A stretch of DNA of 64,000 nt, from assembly GCF_016865425.1 (NCBI RefSeq), contig NZ_AP023355.1, forward strand, positions 5,826,198-5,890,197. The letters are read 5' to 3'. Shown piece after piece: positions 3,693-48,786 of this stretch. The position numbers and the translations under genes were made by a program. The notes beneath the pieces are model-generated. The model saw nothing but the letters and a program-made list of their open reading frames with translations, made no database searches and was not told where the DNA came from. The stretch's first letter is position 1; the number at the start of each line of letters is the position of its first letter. The stretch is from Actinocatenispora thailandica. GTDB taxonomy: Bacteria; Actinomycetota; Actinomycetes; Mycobacteriales; Micromonosporaceae.

Positions 3693-4688
3693 ATGTCCGG
3701 ACGAACCCGGAGCACCTCAGGCCGGTTACTCGTTGTCGCCGCGTGCACCTCGATACTGGCGGTCCTGTCGGCGTGTGCTGCGAACCCCAACGAAGGCAGC
3801 GCATCGACGACCAGTTCGACGAAAGCCCACACCACCGGTAAGCCCTTGGCATCGGCCGAGTTCGTCAACCCGTTGCCGCAGTACCCGGCGTGGCGCACCA
3901 TCGGCGACTGCATGGCGAGCGAGGCCAAGTCCCGCGGGATCGACTTCACCGAGAGCGGCCCGACCGGGGGCACTCTCGACGCCACCAAGATGATCCAGCA
4001 GATCCAGCAGGCGACCGCCGACAAGAAGGGCGCCATCATCACCTTCCCGGCCAGCGATGCCTTCACGCCGGTGCTGCAGAACGCGCGGAAGGCAGGCATC
4101 GTCACCGGCACGCTGTACGGCGATGGGGGTGACGTCGTCGTCGGCCCCAACTACACCAAGCTGGGCAAGATGTTCGTCGATGCCATCGCCAAGCGCCCCG
4201 GGCAGCAGAATCTCGGCCTGATGGCGCAGAGTGACACCGGCCAGGCCAAGCAGTGGACGGCCGGTGTCGTGGCCGCGGCGAAGGCCACGAGCAACGTCAA
4301 GGTCGTCGGGACCGTCTACACCAACGACGACGCCGCGAAGGCTCTCGACCAGGCCAACGCGCTGCTGACCGCGCACCCGGACATCAACGTGATCGCCAGC
4401 CACATGGGTTCCGTCACGCCCGGTGTCGTCGCCGCGATCAAGTCACGGAACCTGGTGGGCAAGGTCGTGTTCGTCGCGTCCGGCGCCGACAACGGCGGCA
4501 AGGAGGCGGTGGCGCACGGCATCGCGTACGGGGCATGGCTGCAGGGCCTGTGCGACGAGGGCAAGACCATCATCGACGCGGTCGCGGACAAGGCCGAGGG
4601 CAAGACGGTGCCGGCGCACATCGACGCCAAGGAGACCATCGGTACCAAGAAGAACCTCAGCACCCTGCTCGGGCAGGGTTGGGGGTGA
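3693..4688 (+). CDS. Sugar ABC importer, periplasmic-type binding lipoprotein
   Basis: The product has 331 residues from the ATG at 3693, which follows a GAGAGGA ribosome site. A signal peptide ends in the lipobox LSAC at about residues 26-29, so this is a surface lipoprotein. The mature part looks like the ribose/galactose-type binding proteins of the CUT2 importers: repeated alpha/beta segments such as KMIQQIQQATADKKGAIITF, ANALLTAHPDINVIASHMGS and the C-terminal ASGADNGGKEAV. It leads an operon with an ATPase, a permease, two esterases and, after 165 bp, a polyol dehydrogenase. The ligand is probably a sugar or polyol; it cannot be named from sequence. Confidence 0.9.
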   Translation: MSGRTRSTSGRLLVVAACTSILAVLSACAANPNEGSASTTSSTKAHTTGKPLASAEFVNPLPQYPAWRTIGDCMASEAKSRGIDFTESGPTGGTLDATKMIQQIQQATADKKGAIITFPASDAFTPVLQNARKAGIVTGTLYGDGGDVVVGPNYTKLGKMFVDAIAKRPGQQNLGLMAQSDTGQAKQWTAGVVAAAKATSNVKVVGTVYTNDDAAKALDQANALLTAHPDINVIASHMGSVTPGVVAAIKSRNLVGKVVFVASGADNGGKEAVAHGIAYGAWLQGLCDEGKTIIDAVADKAEGKTVPAHIDAKETIGTKKNLSTLLGQGWG

Positions 4689-11576: not shown

Positions 11577-12272
11577 TCAGCCGACCTGGTGGCTCGCGGC
11601 GAAACCGGCCGGATCCGCCGCCCAGCTGCGGACACCGGGCAGCAGGTCGTCCACGACCCGCCCGGACAGCTGCGCCGGCCCGGCCTGCCGGCCGAACCGG
11701 TCAACATACCCACCGATCGCGCCGAGCCGCAACGCGGGTGCGATGTCGTTGCGCCAGTGGTCGCCGAGGCTGAGCAGCCGCCACGGCTGGCCGGCCGCGC
11801 CGATCGAGCGCAGCAGCCGGGTCGCCAGCGGTACCAGCCCGTCCGGCTTGTGCGCGCTGAACACGACCTCGGCGAACAGGTTCGCCACCCCGAGCCGGTC
11901 GAGCAGTGCGACCAGGCCGTCTCGGGGGCTGTTCGTCGCGAGGACCGGAAGGTACCGGTCCCGCAGCTCGGTCACCAGCCGCACCAACGGTTCCGAGACC
12001 GTGACCGGCACGGTGCCGTCGGCCATCCCGTACCGGGAGCGGAGGAACGCGGCGTCGGCGAGCCGGCGCGGGACGGTACCGGCGATCGCCCGTACCGCCT
12101 CCCAGCCGTCGGCGGCGACGATCGGCGAGGTGCCCGCCAGGTACGCCTCGACGCCCGGAACCAGGCCCGCATCGCCGGTCAGCGCGGCCAGTTCGGCGGC
12201 GTAGCACCGGATCGGCTCGTCGCCGGTGTAGAGCGTGCCGTCCAGGTCGACCAGCAGGATGCCTTCGATCAC
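11577..12272 (-). CDS. HAD-superfamily hydrolase
   Basis: The 231-residue protein starts with GTG at 12272, overlapping the permease stop by four bases. Motif I is VDLDGTLYTG, motif II lies in VLATNSPRDG, the lysine in FSAHKPDG, and motif III in LSLGDHWRNDI. This is the phosphoglycolate-phosphatase-like pattern, so it is probably a cytoplasmic phosphatase acting on a sugar phosphate or similar compound. Coupling to the importer suggests that it acts on a product of the imported ligand. Confidence 0.85.
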   Translation of the reverse strand: MIEGILLVDLDGTLYTGDEPIRCYAAELAALTGDAGLVPGVEAYLAGTSPIVAADGWEAVRAIAGTVPRRLADAAFLRSRYGMADGTVPVTVSEPLVRLVTELRDRYLPVLATNSPRDGLVALLDRLGVANLFAEVVFSAHKPDGLVPLATRLLRSIGAAGQPWRLLSLGDHWRNDIAPALRLGAIGGYVDRFGRQAGPAQLSGRVVDDLLPGVRSWAADPAGFAASHQVG

Positions 12273-42586: not shown

Positions 42587-43759
42587 TCAGGCCGGCACCG
42601 GGTCCGCGGTGCCGGGCAGCACGTCCGCGGTGCACCGGTGGATGCGCAACACCGCGAGCCGCGCCCCGGTGAGCAGCCCGTACCGCTCGATCGCAAGCCG
42701 GCCGTAGCGCGAGCAGGTCGGCGCGTACCGGCACCGGGTCGGCAGCCGCGGCGAGATCCGTTGGTACGCCCGGATCGCGGCGACCCCGGCGCGGGCCGGC
42801 ACCCCGACCCGGCGGGCGGGCCCGGCCCCGGCCGGCCGAGGCCGGGCCGGCACAACGGCCGGGCGGGCCGGTAGGTCGGCCGCACCCGCCGGCACGGACG
42901 GACCGGTCGCGGTGCGGTGCAGGTACGGCAGGCCGGTGCCGGCCAGCGACACGAGCAGCGTGTGCGCGGTGTTCGAGCAGCCACCGCCGCTGCTGCCGCA
43001 CCCCGGGTCGGAGCCGGCGCAGCCGCCCGACGGACCGGCGCACGAGTCGTCCAGCTGCTTGCCGCAGTCGCTGCCGGTGCCACTGCAGGCCGAGTCGCAC
43101 GCCTTGCCGGCCGGATCACAGTTGACCCCCTCGACCGTGCACCCGGCGTTGCCGGTACCGGTCGGGCCACCGGTGGCGCCGCCACCCACACCCGTCGGAT
43201 CGCCGGTCGGGCCGCCACCGGCACCGGGCGTCCATGGGGTGTGGCCGGGCGTCGGGCGGCCCGAACCGGCGCCGGACAACGGGCCCGGACCGGACGAGGG
43301 GCCGGCACCGGGCGCCGCGGGCGCACCGTGGCCGGGACGCTGGGTGAGCCAGACGACCAGCACGCCGATCGCGAGCGAACCCAACGCGACCAGCGCGGCG
43401 AGGCCGCCCAGCCACCGCCACGGCCGCCGCGGTACCAGCCGTCGCCAGCCGCCCGGCGGCCCCGGCGCCCCGGCGGCATCGGCCGGGTCCGCCCCGGCAT
43501 GCGGGGACGCCGGTACGACGGCCCGGCCCGTCACCGCACCAGCCCCGGCGCCGCCCGCGGCGGCCTGGGTGGCCCGGCCGCCCGGCCCGCGGCAGCCGCT
43601 CTCCTCCGCCGCCGACCCACCGGCGCCCCCCGGCTCCCCGGCCGGCCGGGCGTCGCCTGGCGGCTCGGCCGCCTCGGGCCGGCCCGCCCCCTCGGCACCG
43701 CCGGGTTCCGCTGGTCCGGCCGCCGGTGGCGGGTCGTCGGGTCGGGACGGATCGGTCAC
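42587..43759 (-). CDS. Single-span membrane protein with Cys-rich segment and C-terminal YidD domain
   Basis: The 390-residue protein has four parts. Residues 1-105 are low-complexity Pro/Gly/Ala. Residues 117-138 form one membrane span (WLGGLAALVALGSLAIGVLV). Residues 145-265 are Gly/Pro-rich with nine cysteines at 207, 214, 221, 225, 232, 240, 247, 254 and 261. Residues 325-390 are a YidD domain: IRAYQRISPRLPTRCRYAPT, CSRYGRLAIERYGLLTG, and TADPVP at the end. Free-standing YidD proteins are about 80-100 residues and assist YidC-mediated membrane insertion. The fusion and Cys-rich spacer are unusual. It lies 99 bp after the ABC exporter pair, on the same strand. Confidence 0.82.
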   Translation of the reverse strand: MTDPSRPDDPPPAAGPAEPGGAEGAGRPEAAEPPGDARPAGEPGGAGGSAAEESGCRGPGGRATQAAAGGAGAGAVTGRAVVPASPHAGADPADAAGAPGPPGGWRRLVPRRPWRWLGGLAALVALGSLAIGVLVVWLTQRPGHGAPAAPGAGPSSGPGPLSGAGSGRPTPGHTPWTPGAGGGPTGDPTGVGGGATGGPTGTGNAGCTVEGVNCDPAGKACDSACSGTGSDCGKQLDDSCAGPSGGCAGSDPGCGSSGGGCSNTAHTLLVSLAGTGLPYLHRTATGPSVPAGAADLPARPAVVPARPRPAGAGPARRVGVPARAGVAAIRAYQRISPRLPTRCRYAPTCSRYGRLAIERYGLLTGARLAVLRIHRCTADVLPGTADPVPA

Positions 43760-43858
43760 GATGCCTCCAGGAGATCGGCCGACATCATCACCGACCCACG
43801 CAACCCGGGCGACCCCGCCCGCCGGCCGGGTCGGTGCCGGCCCACCGGCCGGGCCGGG

Positions 43859-45736
43859 TCAGGGTCGGCCGTGCCAGGACTCCCAGAGCGCGGCGTAGTC
43901 GCCGCCGGCAGCGACCAGCTCGGCGTGCGAACCGAGCTCGACGATCCGGCCGTCCGCGACGACGGCGACCCGGTCCGCGTCGTGCGCGGTGTGCAACCGG
44001 TGCGCGATCGCGATCACGGTACGGCCGTCGAGCACGGCGCCGAGCGAACGCTCCAGGTGCCGGGCGGCGCGCGGGTCGATCAGCGAGGTCGCCTCGTCGA
44101 GTACCAGGGTGTGCGGGTCGGCGAGCACCAGCCGGGCGAGCGCCAACTGCTGCGCCTGCGCCGCGGACAGCTCGGTACCGCCGGAGCCGACCACGGTGGC
44201 CAGCCCGTCCGGCAGCGCGTCGGCCCAGCCGATCGCGTCGACGGCGCGCAGCGCGGCCCGTACCTCGGCCTCGCTCGCGTCCGGCCGCGGCAGCGACACG
44301 TTGTCGGCGACGGTACCGACGAACACGTGGTGCTCCTGGGTCACCAGCGCCACCTCGCGGCGCCGGCGGGCCAGCGGCAGCGAGGTCAGCGGTACGCCGC
44401 CGATGGTCACCGAACCTTCCCGCGGCGGGTGGATGCCGGCGAGCAGCCGGCCCAGCGTCGACTTGCCCGCGCCGGACGGGCCCACCATCGCCAGCCGTTC
44501 GCCCGGTCGTACCGCGAGGTCGATGCCGCGCAACACGTCCCGACCGTCCACATAGGAGTAATGCAGGCCGGCGGCGACCAGGGTCGGCGCGGTGTCCCCT
44601 TCGCCGCGCCCGCACGCATGGTCCCCTTCGCCGGGCCTCCGCGCGGTGTCCCCTTCGCCGGACCCCCGCGCGGTGTCTGCTTCGCCGGGCCTCTGCGCGG
44701 TGTCTGCTTCGCCGGGCCCCCGCGCGCTGCCCGCTGGGGTGCGTCCCCGCCCGTCGCCCGGTTCGGCGGAGACGCCGAGCAGGCGGGCCAGCGAGGCGCC
44801 GCCGACCTGCAACTCGTCCAGCCAGGACAGCAGCCGGTCGACCGGGTCGATCAGCTGCTGCACGTACAGCGTGGCGGCCGTGACCTGGCCGAGGCTGGCC
44901 ATGCCGTGCGTGTAGAGCAGCCCGCCGACCAGCAGCGTCGCCACCACCGGAAGGACGTAGCTGACCTCCGCGGCGGGGAACCACACCGACCGCAGGAACA
45001 GCGTGTACCGCTCGGCCGCGAACGACCGCCCGATGTCGCCGTCGGTGCGCCGGATCCGCTGCCGGGCCAGCCGCAGCGCCTCGACGGTACGGGCGCCCTC
45101 GACGGTCTCGGCCAGCCCCTCGTTGACGTCCGAGTACGCGGCGTTCTCGCGCAGGTAGCCGGCGGTGGCACGGCGCAGGTACCAGCGGGTCGAGACCCAC
45201 AGGATCGGCACCGCGATCAGGCAGGGCAGCGCGACGAGCGGGCCGACCAGGGCCAGCGCGCCGAGCGTGAGGACGGTCGTGACCAGCGCGATGAGCGTCT
45301 CCGGCGCGGCGAACCGGACCGTGCGGGCGAGCGCGTCGACGTCCCGGGAGGTGCGGGTCAGCAGGTCACCGGTGCCGGCACGCTCCACCGTGGACAGCGG
45401 CAGGGACAGTACCCGGCGGACGAACTCCTCGCGCAGCTCGGCCAGCACCCGCTCGCCGAGCCGGAACGACACCAGCCGGGCGAAGCGGGTCAGCACCGAC
45501 TGGCCGATCACGAACGCCGCGATCGCCAGCGCCACCTTGTCCACCGTGACCCGGGTGGTCCCATCCTGTACCGCCTGCACCAGGTTGCCGAGCAGCCGCG
45601 GCGCGCCGAGACCGGCGACGGCCGCCAGCGCGTGCAGGACCAGCGCGGTCACCAGCGCCTTCGGGTGCCGCCGGGCGAGGGTACGGGCGTACCGCCGGAC
45701 CTGGGCCGGCGTCGCCACCGGCAGCTGCACCGTCAT
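43859..45736 (-). CDS. ABC exporter half-transporter, ATP-binding competent subunit
   Basis: The 625-residue protein has a six-span exporter domain (about 1-320) and an ATPase domain (about 385-625). Walker A is GPSGAGKST (419-427), the Q-loop TQEHHVF, Walker B LVLDEATS with Asp547 and Glu548, and the switch is AHRLH. The signature, normally LSGGQ, is LSAAQ (523-527). The linker at 341-385 is five 9-residue repeats of the type PGEADTAQR. It starts ATGA-overlapped with the partner gene and should form a heterodimer with it. Substrate unknown. Confidence 0.9.
   Translation of the reverse strand: MTVQLPVATPAQVRRYARTLARRHPKALVTALVLHALAAVAGLGAPRLLGNLVQAVQDGTTRVTVDKVALAIAAFVIGQSVLTRFARLVSFRLGERVLAELREEFVRRVLSLPLSTVERAGTGDLLTRTSRDVDALARTVRFAAPETLIALVTTVLTLGALALVGPLVALPCLIAVPILWVSTRWYLRRATAGYLRENAAYSDVNEGLAETVEGARTVEALRLARQRIRRTDGDIGRSFAAERYTLFLRSVWFPAAEVSYVLPVVATLLVGGLLYTHGMASLGQVTAATLYVQQLIDPVDRLLSWLDELQVGGASLARLLGVSAEPGDGRGRTPAGSARGPGEADTAQRPGEADTARGSGEGDTARRPGEGDHACGRGEGDTAPTLVAAGLHYSYVDGRDVLRGIDLAVRPGERLAMVGPSGAGKSTLGRLLAGIHPPREGSVTIGGVPLTSLPLARRRREVALVTQEHHVFVGTVADNVSLPRPDASEAEVRAALRAVDAIGWADALPDGLATVVGSGGTELSAAQAQQLALARLVLADPHTLVLDEATSLIDPRAARHLERSLGAVLDGRTVIAIAHRLHTAHDADRVAVVADGRIVELGSHAELVAAGGDYAALWESWHGRP
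44582..44716. repeat. 27-bp coding tandem repeat, five copies
   Basis: Five 27-bp units code for residues 341-385, the linker between membrane and ATPase domains: PGEADTAQR, PGEADTARG, SGEGDTARR, PGEGDHACG, RGEGDTAPT. Copy-number change would alter linker length without a frameshift. Confidence 0.85.
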
Positions 45737-47508
45737 TCCGTCGCCTCCACGGTGTGTCGCGACCGTGGCGGCAGCGTCGGGACACCGGGCCGGTCCTCGT
45801 CGTCGTCCTCGCCGCGGAGCACCACCGCGCGGTACGCCGGGTCCGCGAGCAGTTCGGCGTGGCTGCCGGCGGCGGCGAGGACGCCGTCGGCCACGAACAG
45901 CACCGTGTCGGCCCGGCCGGCGAGCAGCGGGCTCTCGGTCAGCACCACGGTGGTCCGACCGGCGCGGAAGCCGGCCAGCCGGGACGCGATCCGCGCCTCG
46001 GTGTGCGCGTCGACCGCGGAGGTCGGCTCGACCAGGATCAGCACGTCCGGGTCGGCGAGCAGTGCCCGCGCCAGTACCAGCCGCTGCTGCTGGCCGCCGG
46101 ACACCGACCGGCCGCGCTCCTCGATCGTGGTGTCCAGCCCGTCCGGCAGGCCGGCCAGGATGTCGGCCCCGGACGCGGCGTCCAGCGCGGCCAGGATCCG
46201 CTCGTCGGGCAGCGCACCGGACGGGTCCAGCTCGGCCCGCAGCGGCCCGGCGAACAGCCGGGCCCCGGTGTCGGACACCAGGATCCGGCGGCGCACCTCG
46301 GCGGCCGGCAGCCGGTCCAGCGGTACCCCGCGGAACAGCACCGAGCCGGCCGCGTACCGGCCGAGCCGGTCGGCGAGCTGCGCCGCGGCCGGCCGGCCCG
46401 ACACCACCAGTACGGTCAGCGAGCCGGCGGCGATCCGGATCCCGGAGGCGGCGTCGGCCAGCTCCACCGCACCCGGCTCGTCGGGTACCGGGGCGGGCGA
46501 GGTGGGGTCGGCCAGCTCCGGCTCGATGTCGAGGATCCGCACCACCCGGCGGGCCGCGACCAGCCCGCGGGTCAGGTTGTCGGCCGCCTCGGTGAGCGTG
46601 CTCAGCGGCTGCACCAGGAACGCCGCGTACCCGTAGAAGGCGACGAGCTGGCCGGGGCTGATCACGCCGGTCAGCGCGAACCGCGCGCCGAGCCAGGTGA
46701 CCAGTACGACGAACACACCGGGCAGCAGGATCTGGGTGGCGTCCAGGGTCGACTCGACGCCGGCGACCCGGTAGCCGGCCGCCCGGACCCGCTGCGACCG
46801 GGTGGCGTACCGCCGGGCGAACACCTCCTCGCCGCCCACCCCGCGCAGCACCCGCAGCCCGTGCACGATGTCGTTCGCGTACGTGGTGAGGTCGCCGGCG
46901 AGTTCCCGCTGCGCCTGCTGGCGGCGGTGCAGCGGCTTGAGCACCGGCCCGATCGCGAGCACCAGCAGCGGCACCCCGATCAGCACCAGCAGTCCCAGCG
47001 GTACCGAGGTGGTGAGCAGGATGACCGCCACGGTGACGAACGAGACGACCGAGCCGGCGAGCCGGCCGGAGATGTCCAGGGTGTTGCCGAGCTGGGCGAT
47101 GTCGGTGGCGCCGACGGTGACCACCTCACCGGTCGCGACCCGCTTCGGCAGCGTGGCACCGAGCCGCACCGCGTGCCGGGTCACCACCTGCACGGTCCGG
47201 TACGCGGCGGTCAGGAAGTTGGACACGGCGAGCCGGTGTCGCATCACGCCGGCGGCGGCCTGCACCACGCCGAGCCCGAACAGCACGGCCGCCCAGTCGA
47301 ACAGCGCGCGGGTGTCCCGGTGGCCGAGGCCGGCGTCGATCGCCTTGCCGATCGCGGCCGGCATCAGCGCCTGGGCGAGCATCCACGCCACCCCGAAGCA
47401 CATCGCGACGAGGATCGTGCCGGCCTGCCTGCGCACCAGCCAGCGCAGGTACGACGCGGGTGAGCGGTGTACCGGAGTGCCGGGATCGGCGAGGGGCAGT
47501 CGACGCAC
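45733..47508 (-). CDS. ABC exporter half-transporter, subunit with degenerate ATP site
   Basis: The 591-residue protein starts with GTG at 47508. The exporter domain (about 1-325) has LRWLVRRQAGTILVAMCFGV and the usual spans. In the ATPase domain the Walker A position reads VVSGRPAAAQLADRL with no GKS/T, the Q-loop glutamine is replaced (LVSDTGARLF), and Walker B is ILVEPTS with Val493 for Asp, while Glu494 is kept. The signature VSGGQQQR (469-476) is intact. With the partner subunit this leaves one complete composite site. Adjacent YidD-type gene may be part of the same transcript. Confidence 0.9.
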   Translation of the reverse strand: MRRLPLADPGTPVHRSPASYLRWLVRRQAGTILVAMCFGVAWMLAQALMPAAIGKAIDAGLGHRDTRALFDWAAVLFGLGVVQAAAGVMRHRLAVSNFLTAAYRTVQVVTRHAVRLGATLPKRVATGEVVTVGATDIAQLGNTLDISGRLAGSVVSFVTVAVILLTTSVPLGLLVLIGVPLLVLAIGPVLKPLHRRQQAQRELAGDLTTYANDIVHGLRVLRGVGGEEVFARRYATRSQRVRAAGYRVAGVESTLDATQILLPGVFVVLVTWLGARFALTGVISPGQLVAFYGYAAFLVQPLSTLTEAADNLTRGLVAARRVVRILDIEPELADPTSPAPVPDEPGAVELADAASGIRIAAGSLTVLVVSGRPAAAQLADRLGRYAAGSVLFRGVPLDRLPAAEVRRRILVSDTGARLFAGPLRAELDPSGALPDERILAALDAASGADILAGLPDGLDTTIEERGRSVSGGQQQRLVLARALLADPDVLILVEPTSAVDAHTEARIASRLAGFRAGRTTVVLTESPLLAGRADTVLFVADGVLAAAGSHAELLADPAYRAVVLRGEDDDEDRPGVPTLPPRSRHTVEATE

Positions 47509-47595
47509 GACCCTCGACGCTACGGCGGCACCGACGGCCACCGCGACCGAGTTTCCCCGGTACTCGGGGCGCCGGCGGCCACCCCCTGCGCAGCG
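47509..47595. other. Leader of the ABC exporter operon
   Basis: This is the first part of the 387-bp gap between the divergent exporter and GNAT genes. No gene was seen. The promoter of the exporter operon probably lies here or inside the inverted repeat next to it. Confidence 0.35.
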
Positions 47596-47659
47596 TCCTT
47601 TGCTCTGCCTACCTGAGCGTGCCACCAAAGTGTTGCGTATAGGTAGGCAGAGCAAAGGA
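47596..47659. promoter_or_regulatory. 19-bp perfect inverted repeat with 26-nt spacer
   Basis: TCCTTTGCTCTGCCTACCT (47596-47614) is the exact reverse complement of 47641-47659. The spacer (47615-47640) is less GC-rich than its surroundings and includes GCGTAT. It lies 88 bp upstream of the exporter start and may be an operator, a long hairpin or a remnant of a mobile element. Confidence 0.6.
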
Positions 47660-47790
47660 GCGTGAAAAAGGCCCGGCCCCGGAACCAGGCGCGCGCAAAG
47701 GGGCCGGCCCGGAGCAGGCGCGTGCAAAGGGCCCGACCCCGGAGCAGGCAGGCGGAAGGAGCGTGCAACGGGGCCGGGGCCGGAGCAGGC
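47659..47790. repeat. ~30-bp imperfect tandem repeat, four copies
   Basis: Units at about 47659, 47691, 47719 and 47758 share GCGTGCAAAGG (or GCGTGAAAAAGG), then GCCC-GGCCCCGGAGCAGGC with variants. They follow the inverted repeat and end before the GNAT gene. The remaining stretch to 47895 shows no gene. Confidence 0.6.
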
Positions 47791-47895
47791 GGGCGGCCGG
47801 CGGGTCCGCCGTTCGGTCGATCCGGTGCGCCGTGCGACACAGTTCGGCGATTTGCGTACCGGGCGCCCGGGCACCGGCACATAGGGTGCCGTTTC

Positions 47896-48786
47896 GTGAG
47901 TACGGGGTTCACCCGGCGCCGGTTGACCGACCGGGACGCCGGCACGGTGCTGGCATCGCTGCGCGCGTGGGAACCGTCGGCCGGCTGCGGGTGGCAGCTG
48001 CAGGCCGGCGACCTCGGCTGGGCGCTGCGGTTCGAACCGGCGATCCGGGACGAGCAGATCCGGGTGTGGTGGGACGCGACCGGGCGCCCCGCCGCGGTGA
48101 TCCTGTGCGACCAGCCGGGCAGCGCCCGGTGCGCGGTCAACCCCGCGTACCTGCACGACTCGACGCTGGCCGACGCGGTGCTGGCCGACCTGTCCCGCCG
48201 GCTGGACCCGGCCGGCGGCGGCCCGTGGATCGACCCGCCGCCCGGCCCGGGGGCGCTGACCCGCGCGCTGCTCGCCGCCGGGTACGAGCCGGACCCGGAC
48301 ATCTGGCTGCACCTGTGGCGCCCGCTGCCCGGCGCGGCCCACCAGCCCCGGCCCGAACCGACGGTACGGGCGTTCCGGCCCGGCGACGCGGCGCAGCGGG
48401 TGGCGGTGCAGCACGCCGCGTTCCCGGGCTCGTCACTGACCGCGGAACGGTACCGGCGGCTGCGCGCGGTGCCCGACTACCGCGCCGAACTCGACCTGGT
48501 CGGTACGGTCGACGACCGGATCACCGCGTTCTGCCTGGCCTGGCTCGGGCCGCCGGGCGGCACCGCGCTGCTCGAACCGGCCGGTACCCATCCGGGGCAC
48601 CGCCGGCGCGGCCACGCCAGCGCCGTGATCGTCGAGGCGTTCCGGCGGCTCGCCCGGCTCGGCGCGACCGGCGTCGCGGTACTGACCCCGGTCTCCAACC
48701 GGCCGGCCGTGGCGCTGTACCGGGCGCTCGGCTTCACCGCCGTCGCCGAGCGCCGCTCCTACTGGCCCGCCCCGGCACCGGCCTGA
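47896..48786 (+). CDS. GNAT acetyltransferase with two GNAT-like halves
   Basis: The 296-residue protein starts with GTG at 47896. The second half has a clear acetyl-CoA motif, THPGHRRRGHASAVIVEAFR, and NRPAVALYRALGFTAVAERR. The first half (about 1-150) has the size of a second, degenerate GNAT domain, with LLAAGYEPDPDIWLHLWRPL at its end. Tandem GNAT proteins include MshD of mycothiol synthesis, but I do not see enough to assign that. Confidence 0.83.
   Translation: MSTGFTRRRLTDRDAGTVLASLRAWEPSAGCGWQLQAGDLGWALRFEPAIRDEQIRVWWDATGRPAAVILCDQPGSARCAVNPAYLHDSTLADAVLADLSRRLDPAGGGPWIDPPPGPGALTRALLAAGYEPDPDIWLHLWRPLPGAAHQPRPEPTVRAFRPGDAAQRVAVQHAAFPGSSLTAERYRRLRAVPDYRAELDLVGTVDDRITAFCLAWLGPPGGTALLEPAGTHPGHRRRGHASAVIVEAFRRLARLGATGVAVLTPVSNRPAVALYRALGFTAVAERRSYWPAPAPA

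Follow-up and report, generated by a model that had tools for sequence, protein, structure and literature searches.

The window analysed here is a stretch of 64,000 nucleotides from Actinocatenispora thailandica (Micromonosporaceae). On its minus strand, a single open reading frame at 42587-43759 encodes a protein of 390 amino acids with a GTG start. Four bases before the GTG lies GGAGG (43764-43768, minus strand), likely the ribosome-binding site judging from the familiar motif. The protein begins with a Pro/Gly-rich head including the motif GCRGPGGR (residues 55-62; 43574-43597), which is invariant in three congeners. It is followed by a basic stretch, GWRRLVPRRPWRW, and by one transmembrane helix (residues 113-140; 43340-43423), with a hydrophobicity peak of 2.7 and helical in the structure model. 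A Gly/Pro/Thr-rich linker leads to a cysteine-rich arm with nine Cys (residues 207-261; 42977-43141), which shows no regular structure and low confidence in the model. After a short semi-hydrophobic stretch, the protein ends in a YidD domain (residues 326-388; 42596-42784) containing Cys 343, 349, and 376 and modelled as three helices. The open reading frame, the hydrophobicity, and Pfam agree with the description in the earlier note, a YidD domain at the C-terminus of a 390-residue protein with one membrane span.

The frame is real, based on orthologues, the start site, and the codon-position pattern; a misjoined frame is rejected on the same grounds. Full-length orthologues are present in two congeners (G050 and G012), with identities of 71% and 60%. 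In a third congener (G070), the contig ends within the N-terminal part of the gene, inside the GCRGPGGR motif (GGCRG), and gene loss in this genome is therefore rejected. At least part of the gene is present in all four genomes of the genus Actinocatenispora. Nucleotide differences between the window and G050 peak at codon position 3 in six of seven regions, narrowly in some. Their numbers at positions 1/2/3 are 5/2/8 in the transmembrane helix, 7/8/17 in the Cys stretch, and 11/3/12 (only just) in the YidD domain, while residues 263-318 show no position-3 excess (19/19/19). Against G012, position 3 is highest in five of seven regions, only just in the Cys stretch (18/17/19) and clearly in the YidD domain (12/6/26). 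These orthologues, with the recurrence of the architecture in other genera, bear out the earlier claim of a genuine fusion.

The usual YidD is a short stand-alone protein of 80-100 amino acids at the cytoplasmic face of the membrane. In Escherichia coli, this small protein is associated with the membrane and assists insertion that depends on YidC. By its sequence, the window protein belongs to the YidD family. PF01809 matches residues 326-388 with 63.7 bits (cut-off 27, E = 1.3e-17), and TIGR00278 matches with 58.9 bits (cut-off 40). The C-terminal 63 residues keep the three Cys and the P-x-C-S and R-C positions of YidD, and C343, P347, C349, S350, Y352, G361, G365, R372, and C376 are invariant across 27 aligned YidD sequences. 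What distinguishes the protein from the usual YidD is its length of 390 residues, with the membrane span and the Cys-rich arm in front of the domain, and its C-terminus, GTADPVPA instead of GGYDPVP. YidD matches were found in 10 of 14 control genomes, and the family is widespread in bacteria. In the passages concerned, two reviews (PMC8082313, PMC10502375) refer to Yu et al. 2011 for E. coli YidD, and one of them (PMC8082313) there names YidD only as a putative insertion efficiency factor.

Unlike canonical YidD genes, the window gene is not beside rnpA-yidC but between ABC genes and a GNAT gene, and its domain falls outside the canonical group in the trees described below. The position in the rpmH-rnpA-yidD-yidC cluster is usual for YidD but not required for membership in the family. 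The absence of this usual place, which the earlier note reported, holds within the window but not for the genome, since a standard yidD was found elsewhere (C1:6956925), with an rnpA-like frame upstream, as read from the open reading frame, and yidC downstream. This yidC is also supported by PF02096, at 6957276. Because an ordinary yidD sits between rnpA and yidC, the window gene is a second copy.

Such second copies are common in Micromonosporaceae, where 81 of 150 genomes contain at least two YidD matches; in the class sample outside the family, the proportion is 8 of 146. We call the paralogue group that is common in the family, the window gene included, YidD2. YidD relatives are also encoded at 66 loci (L174-L239) in viral contigs, some or all of which may be host genes at the edges of prophages.

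In the phylogenetic tree of 78 YidD domains, a branch (99/96) sets the canonical copies apart, and the group opposite them (97/93) contains 51 of the 52 non-canonical copies. Only L062, which lacks an arm, adjoins the canonical group instead. When other families are included (99 rows), canonical copies still form one group, weakly supported (87/59), and armed copies from other families fall outside it. The alignment of about seventy columns is too short to settle the deeper branching order.

The arm of the window protein contains Cys at residues 207, 214, 221, 225, 232, 240, 247, 254, and 261. The gaps of 7, 7, 4, 7, 8, 7, 7, and 7 residues are exactly those reported from the first inspection of the sequence. 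Among 200,000 random placements, none contained at least six gaps of 7, a statistic picked after the data had been seen. The number of Cys alone is unremarkable, because at least nine Cys within 60 amino acids are reached in 7 of the 331 other stop-to-stop frames of at least 100 amino acids in the window. Thus, it is the spacing, unlike the count, that is striking in this DNA. The DNA of the Cys stretch showed no direct repeat, and Tandem Repeats Finder reported one weak array inside it (21 bp, 2.2 copies, 42997-43043). The arm contains nine Cys in the window protein and in G012 and ten in G050. Across the Cys stretch of three Actinocatenispora species, all sequences agree in 8 of 9 Cys columns, compared with 15 of 46 other columns (Fisher p = 0.0026).

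The presence of an arm in other YidD paralogues was examined in frames selected by a YidD core pattern, with identical cores removed, in which Cys were counted in up to 90 residues before YidD. As starts were not fixed, these upstream frames may contain untranslated residues. At least four upstream Cys were present in 50 of 52 non-canonical frames, a set biased because some regions had been chosen for matches reaching into the arm, compared with 1 of 26 canonical frames (24 of the family plus L072 and L073). Five loci not fitting the core pattern were dropped; four of them reach the threshold, with 4-6 upstream Cys (L057, L058, L084, and L092), and the fifth, L093, has two. In the least biased set, 20 YidD2 hits taken in rank order regardless of Cys, 16 have at least four upstream Cys, and four (L271, L272, L285, and L288) have no arm. 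The arm is thus dispensable somewhere, as the four armless copies and the two upstream Cys each of L104 and L093 indicate. The earlier note took relatives without the cysteines as a sign against a conserved system; such relatives exist, but they are the minority in this set.

Outside the family, 7 of 9 extra YidDs, from three families and counted by eye, have at least four Cys before YidD (one each in G244, G245, G255, G277, and G344 and two in G292), and the extra copies in G251 and G269 have fewer than four. A phylum-wide search with a profile of the short form described below matched 56 of 296 genomes, but only G003, from the same family as the window, matched through the Cys arm. In the other matches, the alignment starts at position 20 of the 121 or further on. 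As the window protein's own alignment starts only at position 42, a late start is no sign of an absent arm.

The arm occurs in several forms, whose sequences do not align with each other. The long form with a membrane helix, as in the window protein, is common to ten congeners and relatives: two congeners, L047, L061, L064, L074, L076, L078, L082, and L101. A single origin of this form stays putative. In these ten proteins, 71 of 77 Cys gaps are 4, 5, 7, or 8 residues, and no gap of 1-3 is observed. For example, the gaps are 4,4,4,8 followed by seven 7s in L061, 4,4,8,8,8,7,7,7,7,7 in L074, 4,8,8,8,8 in L078, and mostly 5 in L076 and L082. The short form, which is the commonest, has no first membrane span; it consists of a Lys/Arg-rich start, CDC..CD..C, and then a hydrophobic stretch such as GLFSLLLTLG. 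Other types include CNPGGPCNTC (L079 group), CDLPDC..DCGDCG (L100, with L075 similar), and CFACCPGGMCC (L102 and L112). Asp directly follows Cys in 49% of 306 arm cysteines. The regular 7-residue spacing emphasised by the earlier note therefore describes the window protein, but its membrane-helix relatives use 4, 5, 7, and 8, and the short form has close CD pairs. Likewise, an arm before YidD is found in other genera, but not universally with this spacing. By sequence, the arm recurs in its place and its Cys content, and it differs in sequence between genera.

Two further types were observed among second YidDs. L168 (near 9742) and L169 (near 9638), in G292 and G245, begin with a stretch rich in Gly and Tyr, after which comes GGGCLRDLLLLDAGCCLAESLGCGG or a similar sequence, an arm of another type with Cys and hydrophobic residues. 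L155 (G251) and L158 (G269) have no arm but a hydrophobic segment after the YidD domain, and in the 99-row tree the two group together with good support, separate from every other copy.

The variation bears on the question whether YidD2 is an ordinary YidD duplicate whose upstream extension is a fast-evolving low-complexity stretch, with Cys that share no function. The differences in arm sequence between genera, the CDG repeats in L044, L045, and L048 that look like slippage, the copies lacking an arm, and the frequency with which Cys-rich frames arise by chance in the G+C-rich window DNA are all in favor of it. Nevertheless, the preferential invariance of the Cys columns within the genus, and the return of an arm in this position across many genera and three further families, make this explanation unlikely.

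The structure model is weak overall (mean pLDDT 55.3, pTM 0.34, 27 sequences) with confident regions limited to the surroundings of the helix and to the YidD part, where 10-residue blocks from 321 to 380 have pLDDT of 81-94. Foldseek of the model found nothing with E below 3, and a sequence search of PDB with YidD2 domains found no match at E up to 1. The topology was considered from the flanks of the single span, basic before it and a Gly/Pro/Thr-rich linker after it. Because of the basic N-terminal flank of the helix, the arm of the window form is predicted to be outside the membrane. With no more than one span in the window protein, the YidD domain would also be outside the cell, unlike the usual YidD. 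Such a protein could be extracytoplasmic, with the N-terminus inside and the arm and YidD outside, in which disulfides cross-link the protein to itself or to the cell surface and the YidD fold has been co-opted. The two flanks fit this topology, and the odd number of nine arm Cys in the window protein and G012 (ten in G050) would leave a free thiol. On the other hand, L078 and L082 have a second strong hydrophobic segment between the arm and YidD, because of which YidD would return to the cytoplasm. In the commoner short form, the first span is missing altogether, and the arm is probably inside or at the inner surface because a strongly basic N-terminus precedes it. The extracytoplasmic location is possible but, on balance, doubtful. 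The side of the membrane on which the domain lies is what separates it from the function in membrane insertion considered below.

Upstream of the YidD2 gene, two ABC-type frames lie in tandem in the window (43859-48414), and the start of the second, an 893-aa frame, looks too early. The nearer one, an ABC exporter half (43859-45736, minus strand), lies 99 bp from the YidD2 gene. G050 and G012 have the same order, as does G070 as far as its contig reaches, and the exporter half is taken here as part of the surroundings of the gene. Predicted genes of 41 loci from 16 genera (the window and L074-L113), obtained with a simple gene finder, were clustered, and no neighbor gene was kept throughout the family in this set. 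YidD itself was clustered in 29 loci from 13 genera. The widest neighbor clusters were ABC-type (8 loci, 6 genera, probably mixed families) and PP2C-phosphatase-like (6 loci, 3 genera). Some genera share a local gene order, such as g28/g29, phosphatase- and trehalose-type genes as read from sequence, and g8/g26. Small neighbors may be missed, because the gene finder missed the window gene itself. The PP2C-phosphatase-like gene is located within ~5 kb of YidD2 at L088, L092, L098, L099, L113, and L085, and two of these three genera also have trehalose-type genes there, which may reflect either an inherited gene order or a link with YidD2. In another family (G344), L166 carries YidD2 near 12272 between recF-like and gyrB-like genes, named from sequence, with the canonical yidD near 4208, ~8 kb away, perhaps near the replication origin.

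A second YidC is present in 7 of 16 hand-picked genomes, 5 of 10 with YidD2 and 2 of 6 without, and in none of the four Actinocatenispora congeners. No link is seen in these 16 genomes, and a YidC copy as the partner of YidD2 is rejected on this sample. That neither YidC copies nor neighbors point to a partner stands against a role of YidD2 as an insertion factor.

The arm was also compared with known Cys-rich systems. Short-form arms such as CIDCGDCGCTGC (L157) resemble CxxCxxC of the ferredoxin-like and zinc-knuckle type, but the spacing in the window arm is 7, not 2-3. Neither the window protein in Pfam nor any of five proteins run against NCBIfam matched a metal-binding model. L076 has regular Cys spacing and a weak match to CefA, the Cys-every-fifth RiPP peptide (NF038108, 15 bits against a cut-off of 30), while the window protein gives no match. 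Together with Cys at about every fifth residue in L076 and L082, this match would fit periodic Cys on which a modifying enzyme acts, as it does in ribosomally made peptides, or at which the ribosome pauses when cysteine is scarce. Such a function is very improbable, as the match is far under the cut-off, the arm is fused to a folded domain, and no neighbor is kept throughout the family in the general clustering of predicted genes. A literature search on polycysteine attenuation, like one on the Actinocatenispora genome, yielded nothing of use.

What is observed directly is the architecture of YidD2, which is conserved in the genus and recurs both within the family and in three more families of the class, together with the presence of a canonical yidD in the same genome. 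The identity of its domain makes nascent membrane proteins the most likely target of the window protein. Judged by composition, the arm Cys, often accompanied by Asp and beside the membrane, would most resemble a metal or redox site. The reading we prefer, to which we give a probability of roughly one in three, is that a second YidD with a Cys arm is an accessory factor for membrane insertion and that the arm binds metal or senses redox. Like E. coli YidD, YidD2 would be active at the membrane, with newly synthesized membrane proteins as its clients. The arm would be flexible and may bind a metal ion or cluster (Zn or Fe-S) or undergo reversible oxidation. The activity of YidD2 or its clients would thereby depend on the metal or redox state. 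In favor of this reading are the canonical copy in the same genome, the separation of the paralogues in the 78-domain tree, the frequency of upstream Cys in the sets counted, the Cys-Asp pairs and preferred gap lengths, the retained YidD residues, and a model that is confident in the YidD part but not in the arm. Against it are the copies without an arm, the arm sequences that fail to align between forms, the YidD domain that a single span would place outside the cell, and the lack of a match to metal-binding models in the proteins run. The new accessory factor for insertion or export that the earlier note suggested is accordingly still a hypothesis.

In the literature searched, outside of which most subscription papers lie, no paper on a Cys-rich or cysteine-armed YidD was found by title or abstract. 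The NCBIfam YidD model accepts all five proteins run against it, each with a different arm form, and automatic naming would therefore hide the difference in the arm. It is conceivable, though rather speculative, that actinomycetes hold an ancient second YidD gated by metal or redox, whose arm beside the YidD domain at the membrane selects or matures metal- or disulfide-containing membrane proteins. YidD is widespread, yet its mechanism is poorly known. A natural YidD variant with a recurrent Cys arm, found beside the ordinary copy, is a direct handle on the mechanism of YidD.
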